A stretch of 43,842 nucleotides of DNA, taken from Bacteroidota bacterium (GTDB lineage Bacteria > Bacteroidota > Bacteroidia > NS11-12g > UBA9320). This document shows, piece by piece, positions 34,276 through 39,781 of this stretch (position 1 is its first letter; every line of letters begins with the position of its first letter). The position numbers and the translations under genes were made by a program. The stretch spans positions 1-43,842 of the forward strand of contig JABIUV010000010.1 in the NCBI GenBank assembly GCA_018700895.1, read 5' to 3'. The notes below the pieces were generated by a model, which was not told where the DNA came from, did not search any database, and saw nothing but the letters and a program-made list of their open reading frames with translations.

Positions 34276-34953
34276 CTATTGTAGTACTAACTTCCGCACA
34301 CCAACTTTTTCTTCAAATGCCACTTGCAAAAAGTATGTTCCTCTGGGTAGGTTTTGAACATCTAGTTGATTCGAAGAATTGTCGAATATCCCGTTTTTTA
34401 ATACTTGACCTTGCAGATTAACGAGTGTGTACTTACTGCCTATTTCTGCCTTAATGGTCAGGAAATCGGAGGTAGGATTAGGGTAGATGAAAAATGAACT
34501 CAGCTCAGGGATATTTACCGAGACTAAGTTGCGAGCATTTATCTTGAATACAATAGAATCACTATTGGCAGGATTGAGTTTGGAGGTAATACGCAAATGT
34601 AGAGTTCCTGAACCCGGAGTTCCATACATGACAAAGTACATTCGTGCTCTATCTTGAGCGTTGTTAGGTATTACCAATGAGCCCTCCGTAACAGGAGGTA
34701 GAAATCCGCAGTATAAATCATATCCTACGATATATTCCCATTCTTCTGGCATGTCTACGTATGTCAACTCCCAAGTGAAGTTTGTATCTCTTGGATGTAT
34801 ACTATCGTTTGTTAGTATAAAATTATAATTATAGTCGAAATTTCGGCTATCTACATTCAGGTTCTCGTGATAGGTAGTATCAAATGAAATCTGTGCGTTT
34901 ACATTAAAGTAAAATGAGGCAAGGAGAGTAGAGAGTATCACTAGTTTTTTCAT
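34276..34953 (-). CDS. Short secreted T9SS type A cargo protein
   Basis: 225 residues. Signal peptide MKKLVILSTLLASFYFNVNA. Residues 25-145 look like one immunoglobulin-like beta domain (NFILTNDSIHPRDTNFTWEL and GTLHLRITSKLNPANSDS). The C-terminal 80 residues are a type A sorting domain: SSFFIYPNPTSDFLTIKAE, YTLVNLQGQVLKNG, QNLPRGTYFLQVAFEEKVGV and the ending RKLVLQ. It is therefore exported through T9SS to the surface. The small Ig-like domain might be an adhesin or scaffold, which is a guess. Single gene with a -7 box 4 bases before the ATG. Confidence 0.82.
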   Translation of the reverse strand: MKKLVILSTLLASFYFNVNAQISFDTTYHENLNVDSRNFDYNYNFILTNDSIHPRDTNFTWELTYVDMPEEWEYIVGYDLYCGFLPPVTEGSLVIPNNAQDRARMYFVMYGTPGSGTLHLRITSKLNPANSDSIVFKINARNLVSVNIPELSSFFIYPNPTSDFLTIKAEIGSKYTLVNLQGQVLKNGIFDNSSNQLDVQNLPRGTYFLQVAFEEKVGVRKLVLQ

Positions 34954-35153: not shown

Positions 35154-36668
35154 TTATCGAGAACCAACCATAACCTTCCTCATAGCTACTTTGCCTTCGT
35201 ACATCACTCGTACAATGTAAGTACTACTTACTAAGTCACTCACATCCACAAAATTTATCCAATTGTGTAATGTTTTATTCAAAACTAGGTTGCCTTGTAA
35301 ATTAGTGATTTCTAATTGAGCACCGGGTTCCGTATTTATTTGGATGTAGACATGAGCTGGATTTGGGAATACATCGAGTTCTAGAGGGACAACGCTTTCA
35401 GTACCAAGTAACGGCATTGTTTCGAGAATACTATCTGCCACCAACACATCAGGTAGGCCATAGCCATACTCATTGTTTGGAGCATCGTATCTATCGCTGC
35501 TTTTCAGTATTGCTTCAAATACTTGAGCATTGGTTTTGTTGGGATGTGCACCTTTCAAGCAAGCAACCATTCCCGCTACAAGTGGGCCTGAGAACGAAGT
35601 TCCACTACCGCGACGTAACAAGCCATTTTCTCTTGGAATGGTATTTCTGCTTCCCATAGCTACCACATCGGGTTTTATGCGTCCGTCGGCACTCGGTCCT
35701 CTGCTGCTGAATGCGGTGATTTGCTCAAAACTATCCACAGCTCCAACACATAATACATTGACCCCGTCACACGGAGCGGTAATATGAAACCAAGGGTCAT
35801 TGCCGGAGTTACCCGCACTGTTGGTAATGAAAATTCCTCGCTTGGCTGCCGCTTCGGCAGCTATGGTAATAATGGTGCTCTCGCCATCCATATCTTGATA
35901 GGTATAATCACCCTGTAAACTATCAAATAAGGAGTAACCCAAGCTACTGTGTATAATGTCCACACCTACACTATCTGCCCACTCCATGGCATTCAGCCAA
36001 TTGAGTTCTTCTAGGTGTGTTTCGGAATAGGTGTTTTCTGTTCGTGCTAGTACAAAATCGGCACCAGGAGCTGCACCCACCATACTATCTGGATAGTTGA
36101 TACCAGCCAAGGCAAGAACTTGCATTCCGTGCGTACTCTCATCGTACTGCATAGGCTCATCATCTACAAAATCATAAGCAGCTTTCACTTGATTATTGGC
36201 CCACAGTGAATCGAAGATAGGTAGACTATCCACCTTCCAAAATCCACCATCAAATAAGGCAAGTGTTACACCTTCTCCCGTATTCCCACGTACATGGTAT
36301 TGGTGAAGATTAAGCATTTCTATTTGCCAATCACCTTGTCCATAGCTGAGATCTTCATCCGTACGGTCTTCTTGTGTTTGGTATGATTGGAAAGGAACTA
36401 CACGAGATACAAAAGGGAGTCCTTCCAATTTTTGAGCTTCGGAAATCTTAATACACGCAGCATTAAGCCACTTGCTCGTTCCTTGTATAATGATGCCGTT
36501 AGCTTCGATTGACTTCACATAGGTGTCACATAAAGGCGATGCGAAGTAGTCTTCACCCTCGCTGCATTTGTCTTCTAAGTACACCCAAGCATACTGAGCA
36601 CTACACGAAAATTGTATTAATACGCTGATTACGAGAGTACTAATCCTCCAATAGTTGTTTAATTTCAT
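35154..36668 (-). CDS. Subtilisin-like S8 peptidase with T9SS sorting domain (nested, possible own start)
   Basis: If translated from ATG 36668 inside the mutS frame, the product is 504 residues starting MKLNNYWRISTLVISVLIQF, then SCSAQ, a normal signal peptide. GAGG stands 5 bases before that ATG, an unusually good ribosome site for this genome. The protease triad is intact, counted from this Met: Asp140 (VTLALFDGGF), His180 (ESTHGMQVLALAG) and Ser358 (GSGTSFSGPLVAG), with Asn287 (SAGNSGND) as oxyanion residue. The end (about 430-504, LDVFPNPAHVYIQINTE to KVAMRKVMVGSR) is a type A sorting domain. It would be exported by Sec and T9SS. The first four residues M-K-L-N double as the conserved MutS C-terminus. 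Confidence 0.75.
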   Translation of the reverse strand: MKLNNYWRISTLVISVLIQFSCSAQYAWVYLEDKCSEGEDYFASPLCDTYVKSIEANGIIIQGTSKWLNAACIKISEAQKLEGLPFVSRVVPFQSYQTQEDRTDEDLSYGQGDWQIEMLNLHQYHVRGNTGEGVTLALFDGGFWKVDSLPIFDSLWANNQVKAAYDFVDDEPMQYDESTHGMQVLALAGINYPDSMVGAAPGADFVLARTENTYSETHLEELNWLNAMEWADSVGVDIIHSSLGYSLFDSLQGDYTYQDMDGESTIITIAAEAAAKRGIFITNSAGNSGNDPWFHITAPCDGVNVLCVGAVDSFEQITAFSSRGPSADGRIKPDVVAMGSRNTIPRENGLLRRGSGTSFSGPLVAGMVACLKGAHPNKTNAQVFEAILKSSDRYDAPNNEYGYGLPDVLVADSILETMPLLGTESVVPLELDVFPNPAHVYIQINTEPGAQLEITNLQGNLVLNKTLHNWINFVDVSDLVSSTYIVRVMYEGKVAMRKVMVGSR

Positions 36669-39236
36669 TAGTGCCTCAATGGGAGTGAGGCTTTCGATGC
36701 TCAATTTATCGATGGTTTGCAATACCTCAGCAGTTTTAGGGTCATTTATTTGAAACAAATTCAGCTGGTAATTTTGGTCTTGAACTTTTTTTATAGAATC
36801 TTTGGTGCTGATGCTTGCTCTGTCGTTTTCTAATTGTTTTAAGATACTATCTGCCCGCTTGAGTACTTTTTTAGGTATTCCAGCCATACGAGCCACATGT
36901 ATTCCAAAACTATGTTCGCTGCCACCTTTTTTCATTTTACGCAAGAATATAACCTTATTTCGTTTTTCCTCCGTACTTACGTAGTAATTGACTACGCCTT
37001 CGTTTTTACTCTCTAACTCATTAAGCTCGTGATAATGCGTAGCAAATAGTGTCTTGGGCTTTTCTTCACTTTGACTCAGAAACTCTGCAATACTCCACGC
37101 CAAACTTACCCCATCAAAGGTACTCGTGCCGCGACCTATCTCGTCTAGTATTACCAAGCTTCGCTCACTCAGATTATTGAGGATACTTGCAGTTTCTACC
37201 ATTTCTACCATAAATGTAGATTCACCTTGCGAAATATTATCTGATGCTCCTACACGGGTATATATCTTGTCTACGATGCCTACTTCAGCGTGAGCCGCGG
37301 GAACAAAACAACCTACCTGAGCCAGCAATACGGTAAGTGCGGTCTGTCGCAATATCGCAGACTTACCACTCATATTAGGACCTGTAAGAATGATAATCTG
37401 TTGATCTTCTTTGTTCAGATAAATATCATTAGGGATATACGTATAACCCTTAGCTAACTGTTGCTCAATCACCGGATGTCTACCATCCTTAATTGCCAAG
37501 TTCATACTATCATTTACATCAGGCTTGGTGTAGTTGTTATCTGCTGATACATTGGCAAAACTTGAAATACAATCCAGTTTAGCTATTTGGCGAGCATTGT
37601 GCTGCACATTCGTAATATAAACGCTTAATTTATCGACAAGTACCGTGTATAAGGCTGTTTCTAAGGTACTTATCTTATCCTCCGCGGCTAATATTTTCTC
37701 CTCAAATTCCTTTAACTCTGGTGTAATGTATCGTTCGGCACTTACCAGTGTTTGCTTTCTAATCCAGTCTTCAGGCACTTTATCCTTGTGGGTATGTGTC
37801 ACTTCTAGGTAGTACCCAAATACATTATTGAACGCCAACTTTAGACTAGATATTCCTGTACGTTCGGCCTCTCGCTCTTTGATGCCGAGCAGGTAGTCTT
37901 TACCGTTTTTAGATACTGATAGGTACTCATCTAGCTCATCATTCACACCCATTTTGAAAATACCACCTTTACTGGCTACCACTGGAGCATCATCTGCAAT
38001 GTGAGAATCGATCAGTGTGACCAAATCTTCACAGAGATGGAGATTTTTGGCAAAATGTACAATTGGTTCGCAATTGGCCGACAAGCACACTTCTTTTACT
38101 CGAGCTATAGATTTTAGCGAAGCAGACAGTTGTGATAGTTCCTTGGGGTTTATTCGTTTCAGAGCAACCTTACTGATTATTCGTTCTAGGTCGCCTATTT
38201 GATGTATCTCATCAGCCAACTTATCGTGCAAGGTTCTATTGTCAATCAGATACTCTACCGTGTCTTGACGTTCTTTTATTTCATTGATATCGAGCAGCGG
38301 TAGTATGAGCCAGTTTTTCATTAGCCTACTGCCCATAGGCGATATCGTTTTATCTACCACATCCAGTAAACTAATGCCTGTAGGGTGGTTACTATGTACT
38401 ATTTCGAGGTTACGAATAGTAAATGAATCAATCCATACGTGGCTTTGCTCATCTATACGCTTTATACTATTAATATGCTCTAAGTCAGTATGATGCGTTT
38501 GGTTGAGATAGTGTATCACCGCACCTGCAGCTATGGTAGCCTCTTCCATATGGTCTATCCCAAAGCCCCGAAGTGATTCTATGTTGAAATGCTTATTGAG
38601 TTGTTCCTTACAGTAATCTTCTTCAAAAAACCACTTGTCTATCGCATAACTGTAATACTCTTCACCGTAGGTTTTGTCAAAAGTGGTGCGGTAGGACTTG
38701 CTCAGTACAATCTCGCTCGGGCTAAGTGATTTAATAAGGCGTTCTACATAATCCTGATTGCCCTGTGCTACCATAAATTCACCGGTGCTTAGGTCGGCAA
38801 ATGCTACACCTACACGATTGTTTTGTTCGTGTATCGCTGCCAAGAAATTATTGCTTCTACTATCATACGTCTTATCATTGGCAGATACGCCTGGAGTAAT
38901 GAGCTCTGTTACTCCACGTTTTACAATGCCTTTGGCCGCTTTAGGGTCTTCTAACTGCTCGCACACAGCTACTCGTTGGCCAGAGCGACTTAGCTTGGGT
39001 AGGTAAGTGTCGAGCGAATGATACGGAAAACCAGCGAGTTCTATCTTACTACCGCCATTGTTACGGTAGGTTTGGACAATATCTAATATTTGGGCTGCTA
39101 TGATAGCATCCTCACCAAATAACTCATAAAAATCTCCAACGCGAAAGAGAAGTAATGTCCCCGGGTATGCCGCTTTTATCTCGCCATACTGTTTCATTAG
39201 TGGAGTTTCTTTTTGCTGCTTTACCTTTGTGCCCAA
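35154..39236 (-). CDS. mutS: MutS fused in frame to a secreted S8 protease with T9SS domain
   Basis: One uninterrupted 1360-codon frame. Residues 1-860 are a complete MutS: ETPLMKQYGEIKAAYP, mismatch motif F36-x-E38 in VGDFYELFGEDA, Walker A TGPNMSGKSAILRQ, LDEIGRGTSTFDGVSLAWS, helix-turn-helix region, and the normal C-terminal motif SLTPIEALMKLN. Instead of stopping, the frame runs into NYWRISTLVISVLIQFSCSA, a signal peptide core, then a subtilisin-like protease and a T9SS sorting domain (see the entry at 35154-36668). MutS recognises mismatches in DNA and works with MutL in the cytoplasm, so a joined secreted protease is functionally at odds. The start is TTG 39236, the first codon after a stop; the next ATG (39197) would cut 13 residues. 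It may be a real fusion, a recent stop-codon loss, or an assembly error. Confidence 0.85.
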   Translation of the reverse strand: MGTKVKQQKETPLMKQYGEIKAAYPGTLLLFRVGDFYELFGEDAIIAAQILDIVQTYRNNGGSKIELAGFPYHSLDTYLPKLSRSGQRVAVCEQLEDPKAAKGIVKRGVTELITPGVSANDKTYDSRSNNFLAAIHEQNNRVGVAFADLSTGEFMVAQGNQDYVERLIKSLSPSEIVLSKSYRTTFDKTYGEEYYSYAIDKWFFEEDYCKEQLNKHFNIESLRGFGIDHMEEATIAAGAVIHYLNQTHHTDLEHINSIKRIDEQSHVWIDSFTIRNLEIVHSNHPTGISLLDVVDKTISPMGSRLMKNWLILPLLDINEIKERQDTVEYLIDNRTLHDKLADEIHQIGDLERIISKVALKRINPKELSQLSASLKSIARVKEVCLSANCEPIVHFAKNLHLCEDLVTLIDSHIADDAPVVASKGGIFKMGVNDELDEYLSVSKNGKDYLLGIKEREAERTGISSLKLAFNNVFGYYLEVTHTHKDKVPEDWIRKQTLVSAERYITPELKEFEEKILAAEDKISTLETALYTVLVDKLSVYITNVQHNARQIAKLDCISSFANVSADNNYTKPDVNDSMNLAIKDGRHPVIEQQLAKGYTYIPNDIYLNKEDQQIIILTGPNMSGKSAILRQTALTVLLAQVGCFVPAAHAEVGIVDKIYTRVGASDNISQGESTFMVEMVETASILNNLSERSLVILDEIGRGTSTFDGVSLAWSIAEFLSQSEEKPKTLFATHYHELNELESKNEGVVNYYVSTEEKRNKVIFLRKMKKGGSEHSFGIHVARMAGIPKKVLKRADSILKQLENDRASISTKDSIKKVQDQNYQLNLFQINDPKTAEVLQTIDKLSIESLTPIEALMKLNNYWRISTLVISVLIQFSCSAQYAWVYLEDKCSEGEDYFASPLCDTYVKSIEANGIIIQGTSKWLNAACIKISEAQKLEGLPFVSRVVPFQSYQTQEDRTDEDLSYGQGDWQIEMLNLHQYHVRGNTGEGVTLALFDGGFWKVDSLPIFDSLWANNQVKAAYDFVDDEPMQYDESTHGMQVLALAGINYPDSMVGAAPGADFVLARTENTYSETHLEELNWLNAMEWADSVGVDIIHSSLGYSLFDSLQGDYTYQDMDGESTIITIAAEAAAKRGIFITNSAGNSGNDPWFHITAPCDGVNVLCVGAVDSFEQITAFSSRGPSADGRIKPDVVAMGSRNTIPRENGLLRRGSGTSFSGPLVAGMVACLKGAHPNKTNAQVFEAILKSSDRYDAPNNEYGYGLPDVLVADSILETMPLLGTESVVPLELDVFPNPAHVYIQINTEPGAQLEITNLQGNLVLNKTLHNWINFVDVSDLVSSTYIVRVMYEGKVAMRKVMVGSR
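39222..39229 (+). promoter_or_regulatory. -7 box (TACCTTTG) of RNA methyltransferase, inside mutS 5' end
   Basis: Exact TAnnTTTG match lying within the first codons of the divergent mutS frame and 24 bases before the TTG start at 39254. No -33 TTTG at usual spacing. Confidence 0.45.
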
Positions 39237-39253
39237 TTATTCTACCAATTATT

Positions 39254-39781
39254 TTGACTCGCAAGGTAAAAAACCAAGATTTGAATAGGCTCACTGTTGA
39301 AAAGTATAGGAAAGTTTCCAAAACTCCTATCATCGTTGTGCTGGACAATATACGCAGTATACACAATGTAGGGGCTATATTCAGAACAAGTGATGCTTTT
39401 CGCGTAGCCAAAATCATTTTGTGCGGTATCACAGCAACTCCACCACACCGTGATATACGCAAAACGGCCCTTGGAGCAGAAGAAAGCGTGGATTGGGAAT
39501 ACTCAGAAACGACCTTAGAGGCGATTAAAAATCTGAAAGAATGTCACATTTGTGCCTTGGAGCAGGTAGTAGATAGTGTACCCTTAAGAGAGGTGGACTT
39601 ACCGCAGGACAAAACAATTGTACTGATAGTAGGCAACGAAGTAGATGGAGTAGACGAAAAGTTGCTCGATTTTTGCAGTCAAGTCATAGAGATACCACAA
39701 TTTGGAACCAAGCACTCGTTTAATGTTTCGGTTTCTACAGGAATAACACTTTGGGAAATGTATAATAAAATAAATGCATAA
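39254..39781 (+). CDS. TrmH/SpoU family RNA 2'-O-methyltransferase
   Basis: About 175 residues from TTG 39254 (M-T-R-K-V-K-N-Q-D-L). The open frame reaches 39155, but that part overlaps mutS and its promoter box and is unlike the family. SPOUT-knot motifs are all present: IIVVLDNIRSIHNVGAIFRT (motif 1), KTIVLIVGNEVDGVDEKLLD (motif 2) and IEIPQFGTKHSFNVSVSTGI (motif 3). These bind S-adenosylmethionine in the knot, and the Arg in motif 1 is catalytic. It methylates ribose in tRNA or rRNA. The short form without an N-terminal RNA-binding domain gives no clue to the target. The 3' end overlaps the next gene by 8 bases. Confidence 0.9.
   Translation: MTRKVKNQDLNRLTVEKYRKVSKTPIIVVLDNIRSIHNVGAIFRTSDAFRVAKIILCGITATPPHRDIRKTALGAEESVDWEYSETTLEAIKNLKECHICALEQVVDSVPLREVDLPQDKTIVLIVGNEVDGVDEKLLDFCSQVIEIPQFGTKHSFNVSVSTGITLWEMYNKINA

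Follow-up and report, generated by a model that had tools for sequence, protein, structure and literature searches.

Apparent fusion of mutS to a secreted protease gene in one Bacteroidota genome: probable loss of one unit of a 10-bp repeat where the two genes overlap

How does a mismatch-repair protein come to share one reading frame with a protease that carries an export signal? Does such a frame encode a new protein architecture, or does it record a mutation or a fault of the assembly? The question arises from the window, the whole stretch of 43,842 nucleotides analysed here. Reading frame and translation show a minus-strand open frame from 39236 to 35154 that begins with TTG, encodes 1360 amino acids and contains no internal stop. 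The single 1360-codon frame reported by the first-pass annotation is therefore open from end to end. That annotation left three options for its origin: internal initiation of the protease, recent loss of a stop codon by deletion, or misassembly. The features at issue are the following, all on the minus strand.

35154..39236, minus strand: fused frame of 1360 codons, open, unique among 38 genomes of the family
36669..39236, minus strand: mutS from its TTG start to the junction, residues 1-856 (Pfam MutS I-V, NCBIfam mutS1/PRK05399)
36659..36668, minus strand: single remaining 10-bp unit ATGAAATTAA, which includes the S8 protease start codon; relatives have two in tandem (ATGAAATTRA ATGAAATTAA)
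36640..36669, minus strand: remnant of the ancestral MutS tail in the -1 frame, NEIKQLLED and stop (three-frame translation; same peptide in relatives)
35154..36668, minus strand: S8 subtilisin-like protease of 504 aa from ATG 36668, with predicted signal peptide and type-A T9SS sorting domain (Peptidase_S8, Por_Secre_tail)

Two complete-looking proteins in one frame

Pfam places MutS domains I-V at residues 11-803 of the fused chain, followed by Peptidase_S8 (987-1260) and Por_Secre_tail (1289-1357). The MutS part belongs to mutS1, with 909 bits against TIGR01070 (cut-off 641.7) and 999 against PRK05399 (480). A search of the whole genome (2.42 Mb, 59 contigs) turned up no other full-length MutS; a second MutS-like match, on contig C39, is distant (28% identity). 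Against the three nearest relatives for which the sequence is full-length, the mutS body shows 87-88% identity, and its TTG start codon is common to 9/9 same-genus relatives examined. Upstream of this TTG (window 39236-39300), between mutS and a divergent SpoU-family methyltransferase gene, lies a conserved block, ttttttaccttgcgagtcaaaata, a candidate for a shared promoter region.

The second part of the chain is an S8 protease with an intact triad and a T9SS sorting domain, as first proposed: Peptidase_S8 matches at 1.4e-33, Por_Secre_tail scores above its cut-off, and the triad motifs DGG, HG and GTSFS lie at 996, 1035 and 1212. Its PDB matches are subtilisins, and a paralogue on contig C50 is 37% identical. 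The gene 3' of the protease (window 34276-34953) codes for a further secreted protein, a small one, likewise with a T9SS sorting tail. A signal-like stretch, MKLNNYWRISTLVISVLIQFSCSAQ, predicted to direct export, starts at ATG 36668; it would lie at an N-terminus only when translation initiates internally.

Could selection have favored a bifunctional MutS-protease? All 1360 codons are open and every domain is intact, as such a protein would require. Yet among the 38 genomes of the family that were searched, the fusion occurs in the window genome alone, which rules out a family of functional fusions; relatives keep the gene order with separate frames, the old mutS stop and tail are still legible alongside, and a cytoplasmic repair ATPase and a protease exported by signal peptide and T9SS belong to different compartments. 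We find a functional fusion protein scarcely credible.

The junction in relatives and in the window

The protease orthologue adjoins mutS throughout the family. Matches to the MutS part in related genomes stop, in nearly all cases, at about residue 861-868, and the protease appears as a separate adjacent match. Comparison of the junction with relatives, a check proposed at the outset, found separate, overlapping genes and two repeat units in 15/15 genomes read, namely every same-genus relative whose junction can be read (14 genomes) and one family member of another genus. The two genes share about 40 nt, read in different frames, and the protease ATG falls within the 3' end of mutS. Wherever the frame was measured in a same-genus relative, the S8 gene is +1 relative to mutS, and its frame opens no earlier than 29 nt before the stop of mutS. 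At two further loci (L010 and L011, in G034 and G030) the protease lies in the mutS frame with stop codons in between; frame register alone is thus not unusual in this family.

What does the overlap consist of? In the 14 same-genus genomes and the one from another genus it is a tandem 10-bp repeat, ATGAAATTRA twice with 0-2 mismatches, and the repeat is perfect in three of these 15 relatives (G009, G008 and G013). It encodes the MutS tail MKLNEIKQLLED, followed by the stop, and in the other frame the protease start. The tandem exists because the MutS residues MKLNEIK are coded as ATGAAATTRA-ATGAAATTAA; the second copy doubles, in the other frame, as the start of the protease (Met-Lys-Leu-Asn). 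In G016, for example, the junction reads gaagcgtta ATGAAATTGA ATGAAATTAA acaactattggaggattaa, so that MutS ends in MKLNEIKQLLED and a stop, and the protease begins with MKLNNYWR at the second ATG.

The window holds one unit only, gaggcacta ATGAAATTAA acaactattggaggattag. In the aligned junctions this appears as a clean 10-bp gap, present in the window alone: exactly one of the two adjacent units found in 15/15 relatives is lost. Loss of one short adjacent repeat unit is the classic product of slipped-strand mispairing, and a loop of 10 nt exceeds what normal mismatch repair corrects. Since minus ten equals minus one modulo three, MutS enters the protease frame. The old MutS tail can still be read in the -1 frame (AAT GAA ATT AAA CAA CTA TTG GAG GAT TAG), with its TAG at 36642-36640. 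The missing 10 bp and the out-of-frame TAG account for the fusion without any mutation of the stop codon, and the survival of the ancestral TAG rules out stop loss by substitution. The earlier proposal of a stop lost through recent deletion is thus supported as regards the deletion, but the stop itself is unmutated. The sequence A-TTA-AAC at this site weakly resembles a slippery heptamer; a -1 ribosomal frameshift there would reach the old MutS stop.

Internal initiation, offered by the first-pass annotation as an alternative to deletion, is supported together with it by the layout in relatives. In every same-genus relative the protease ATG is internal to mutS, so the protease would normally be initiated within the mutS 3' end, and the gene layout suggests that internal initiation is the ancestral state. 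The deletion spares ATG 36668 and everything downstream; hence normal protease is probably still made in the window strain. The GAGG upstream of this ATG, pointed out in the first-pass annotation, is part of the MutS codons for Glu-Ala and sits 10 nt farther from the protease ATG in relatives than in the window, which makes it unconvincing as a conserved ribosome-binding site. Shine-Dalgarno pairing is little used by Bacteroidota.

Taken together, a recent, strain-specific slipped-strand deletion of one 10-bp unit at the overlapping mutS-protease junction is the likely cause of the fused frame. It would have started from a mutS gene and a downstream secreted protease gene that overlap on one strand, with the tandem repeat in the overlap. 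Slipped-strand misalignment during replication most likely then removed one copy, and the net change of -10 bp would shift mutS by one frame, past its own stop and into the frame of the protease. Ribosomes that initiate at mutS would then make MutS without its last 8 residues and with a protease tail of about 500 residues that includes an internal hydrophobic segment, and ribosomes that initiate at ATG 36668 would still yield the secreted protease in its normal form, just as they do in relatives. The fusion is most likely a fresh instance of an already known type of event.

Could the assembly be at fault?

Alternatively, the organism may carry two repeat copies and two genes, one copy having been dropped by the assembler or through a minority strain variant. 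A tandem repeat can collapse, and the deletion lies precisely on one; MutS, moreover, looks fully constrained. On the other hand, the 20-bp tandem and its unique flanks lie well inside usual read and k-mer lengths, and an error would have to equal one 10-bp unit precisely. The genome-wide count of frameshifts is a sample, obtained by setting 1.06 Mb of this genome against 1.2 Mb of G009: apart from mutS, the 371 genes compared (126,340 aa) show a single real frameshift, in murB. This result indicates that the assembly is not indel-rich. Two automatic frameshift matches were rejected, one on C26 (L180) because the G009 ORF is spuriously extended at its 5' end and one at window 39124-39462 because it is an ORF antisense to the SpoU gene; a 103-aa match on C1 (L156) was left out of the gene-frameshift count.

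The murB case speaks in favor of an artefact. In this gene (L194, G000:C40, 9181-10163, minus strand), the only murB of the genome, one A is missing from an A5 run, which cuts MurB to about 264 aa; the frame is intact in 14/14 aligned relatives. MurB is normally essential. A 1-bp deletion in such a single-copy gene is hard to square with a living cell, and the assembly may therefore hold some false deletions. Either the murB frameshift is a consensus error or, more speculatively, it is an A-run frameshift left by a mismatch-repair defect. Because of murB we keep an assembly or consensus artefact at the mutS junction as a real, if unlikely, alternative, and misassembly, the third option of the first-pass annotation, is less likely than the deletion. 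A search of viral_contigs for same-species alleles gave no match.

Consequences for MutS and comparison with known systems

If the slipped-strand deletion is real, what becomes of MutS? The relatives' protein ends in IEALMKLNEIKQLLED and a stop, and the window match breaks off after MKLN (residue 860), so that the final 8 residues are gone. MutS had been described as complete; domains I-V are indeed present, but these last residues, and with them the end of the C-terminal helix-loop-helix, are replaced. On a profile of 840 positions, window residues 1-856 reach position 832, the fused chain 837 and the intact protein of G016 840. When full MutS is aligned through the E. coli C-terminus, the lost EIKQLLED aligns with the end of the C-terminal (tetramerisation) domain; a PDB search with the 54-residue C-terminus alone returned chance matches only. 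The clamp-binding-like QLNLF (824) and SLTPIEALM (849) and all catalytic domains are retained.

The ~500-residue tail, with its hydrophobic segment at residues 865-880, probably destabilises or mislocalises MutS. Function would probably be reduced or the protein unstable, with no gain. In E. coli, MutS dimers are enough for repair, whereas the P. aeruginosa protein neither oligomerises nor functions once its C-terminal residues R842 and K852 are deleted (both reviewed in PMC8744996). Judged by these two cases, the changed tail could have an effect anywhere between mild and strong. The strain could be a mutator, and its mismatch repair may be altered provided that the deletion is real; the 371 genes compared with G009 show no broad excess of frameshifts.

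How old is the event? Comparison of amino-acid divergence to outgroups with that of sister genomes showed no relaxed constraint in the window MutS. Its dN to G012 is 0.138, against 0.153-0.154 in the sisters, and its amino-acid-changing divergence to outgroups (0.138-0.226) is generally equal to or below theirs. A long-term mutator state or a relaxed MutS is thus unsupported. The protease is slightly more divergent than the sisters' against most outgroups, which we treat as noise. An intact mutL in the same genome, the unrelaxed MutS and the absence of the fusion from the other family genomes together indicate a recent event.

Could the repeat instead act as a reversible mutability switch, in which gain and loss of a 10-bp unit toggle MutS between a normal and a fused form, on the model suggested for the 6-bp repeat in Salmonella mutL? 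The repeat is found in every same-genus genome read, perfect tandems of 10 bp are few (G009 has 4 in 1.2 Mb, counting the mutS-protease junction, and the window's genome 2 in 1.06 Mb), and slippage switches in mutL and mutS are on record (PMC2955026). However, coding constraint in both frames accounts for the repeat, the one copy left offers no tandem for efficient re-expansion, and a single deleted allele has been seen, in one genome of the species. Such a switch is very improbable. Equally improbable is its wider form, a genus-wide phase-variable element in which unit loss would give a tailed, less active MutS (a mutator) and a protease coupled to mutS translation, with rare re-duplication restoring the original state.

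The nearest precedent for the proposed deletion is the allele conversion of mutL in Salmonella typhimurium LT2 and E. coli, in which slipped-strand mispairing removes a 6-bp unit and yields a defective allele, the 6bp-deletion allele (Chen et al. 2010, PMC2955026); further repeats in mutL and mutS were proposed there as switches. In both cases a tandem-repeat copy is lost within a mismatch-repair gene and a variant allele results. The mutL deletion is an in-frame 6 bp in the MutL ATP lid with a measured mutator effect, whereas the mutS deletion is a 10-bp frameshift at the extreme 3' end that fuses the gene to its neighbor. The species survey in that study covers repeat units of 1-6 nt, so the 10-bp mutS repeat falls outside it.

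In comparison with the E. coli MutS tetramerisation helix-loop-helix (~801-853; full-length chains 7ai6 and 7ou2), with whose end the lost residues align, the window protein keeps the body of the domain, SLTPIEALMKLN, but has a long foreign extension in place of the free C-terminus. An annotated 'MutS-protease fusion' of this kind should be read as a frameshift rather than as a new protein architecture, and calls for caution in annotation. The junction also offers a base-resolved case of two unrelated genes becoming one frame through loss of one repeat unit in their overlap. As in other same-strand overlapping bacterial gene pairs joined by indels, an indel that is not a multiple of three puts the frames in register; unlike those pairs, the overlap repeat here supplies both the start codon of the second gene and the substrate for slippage.
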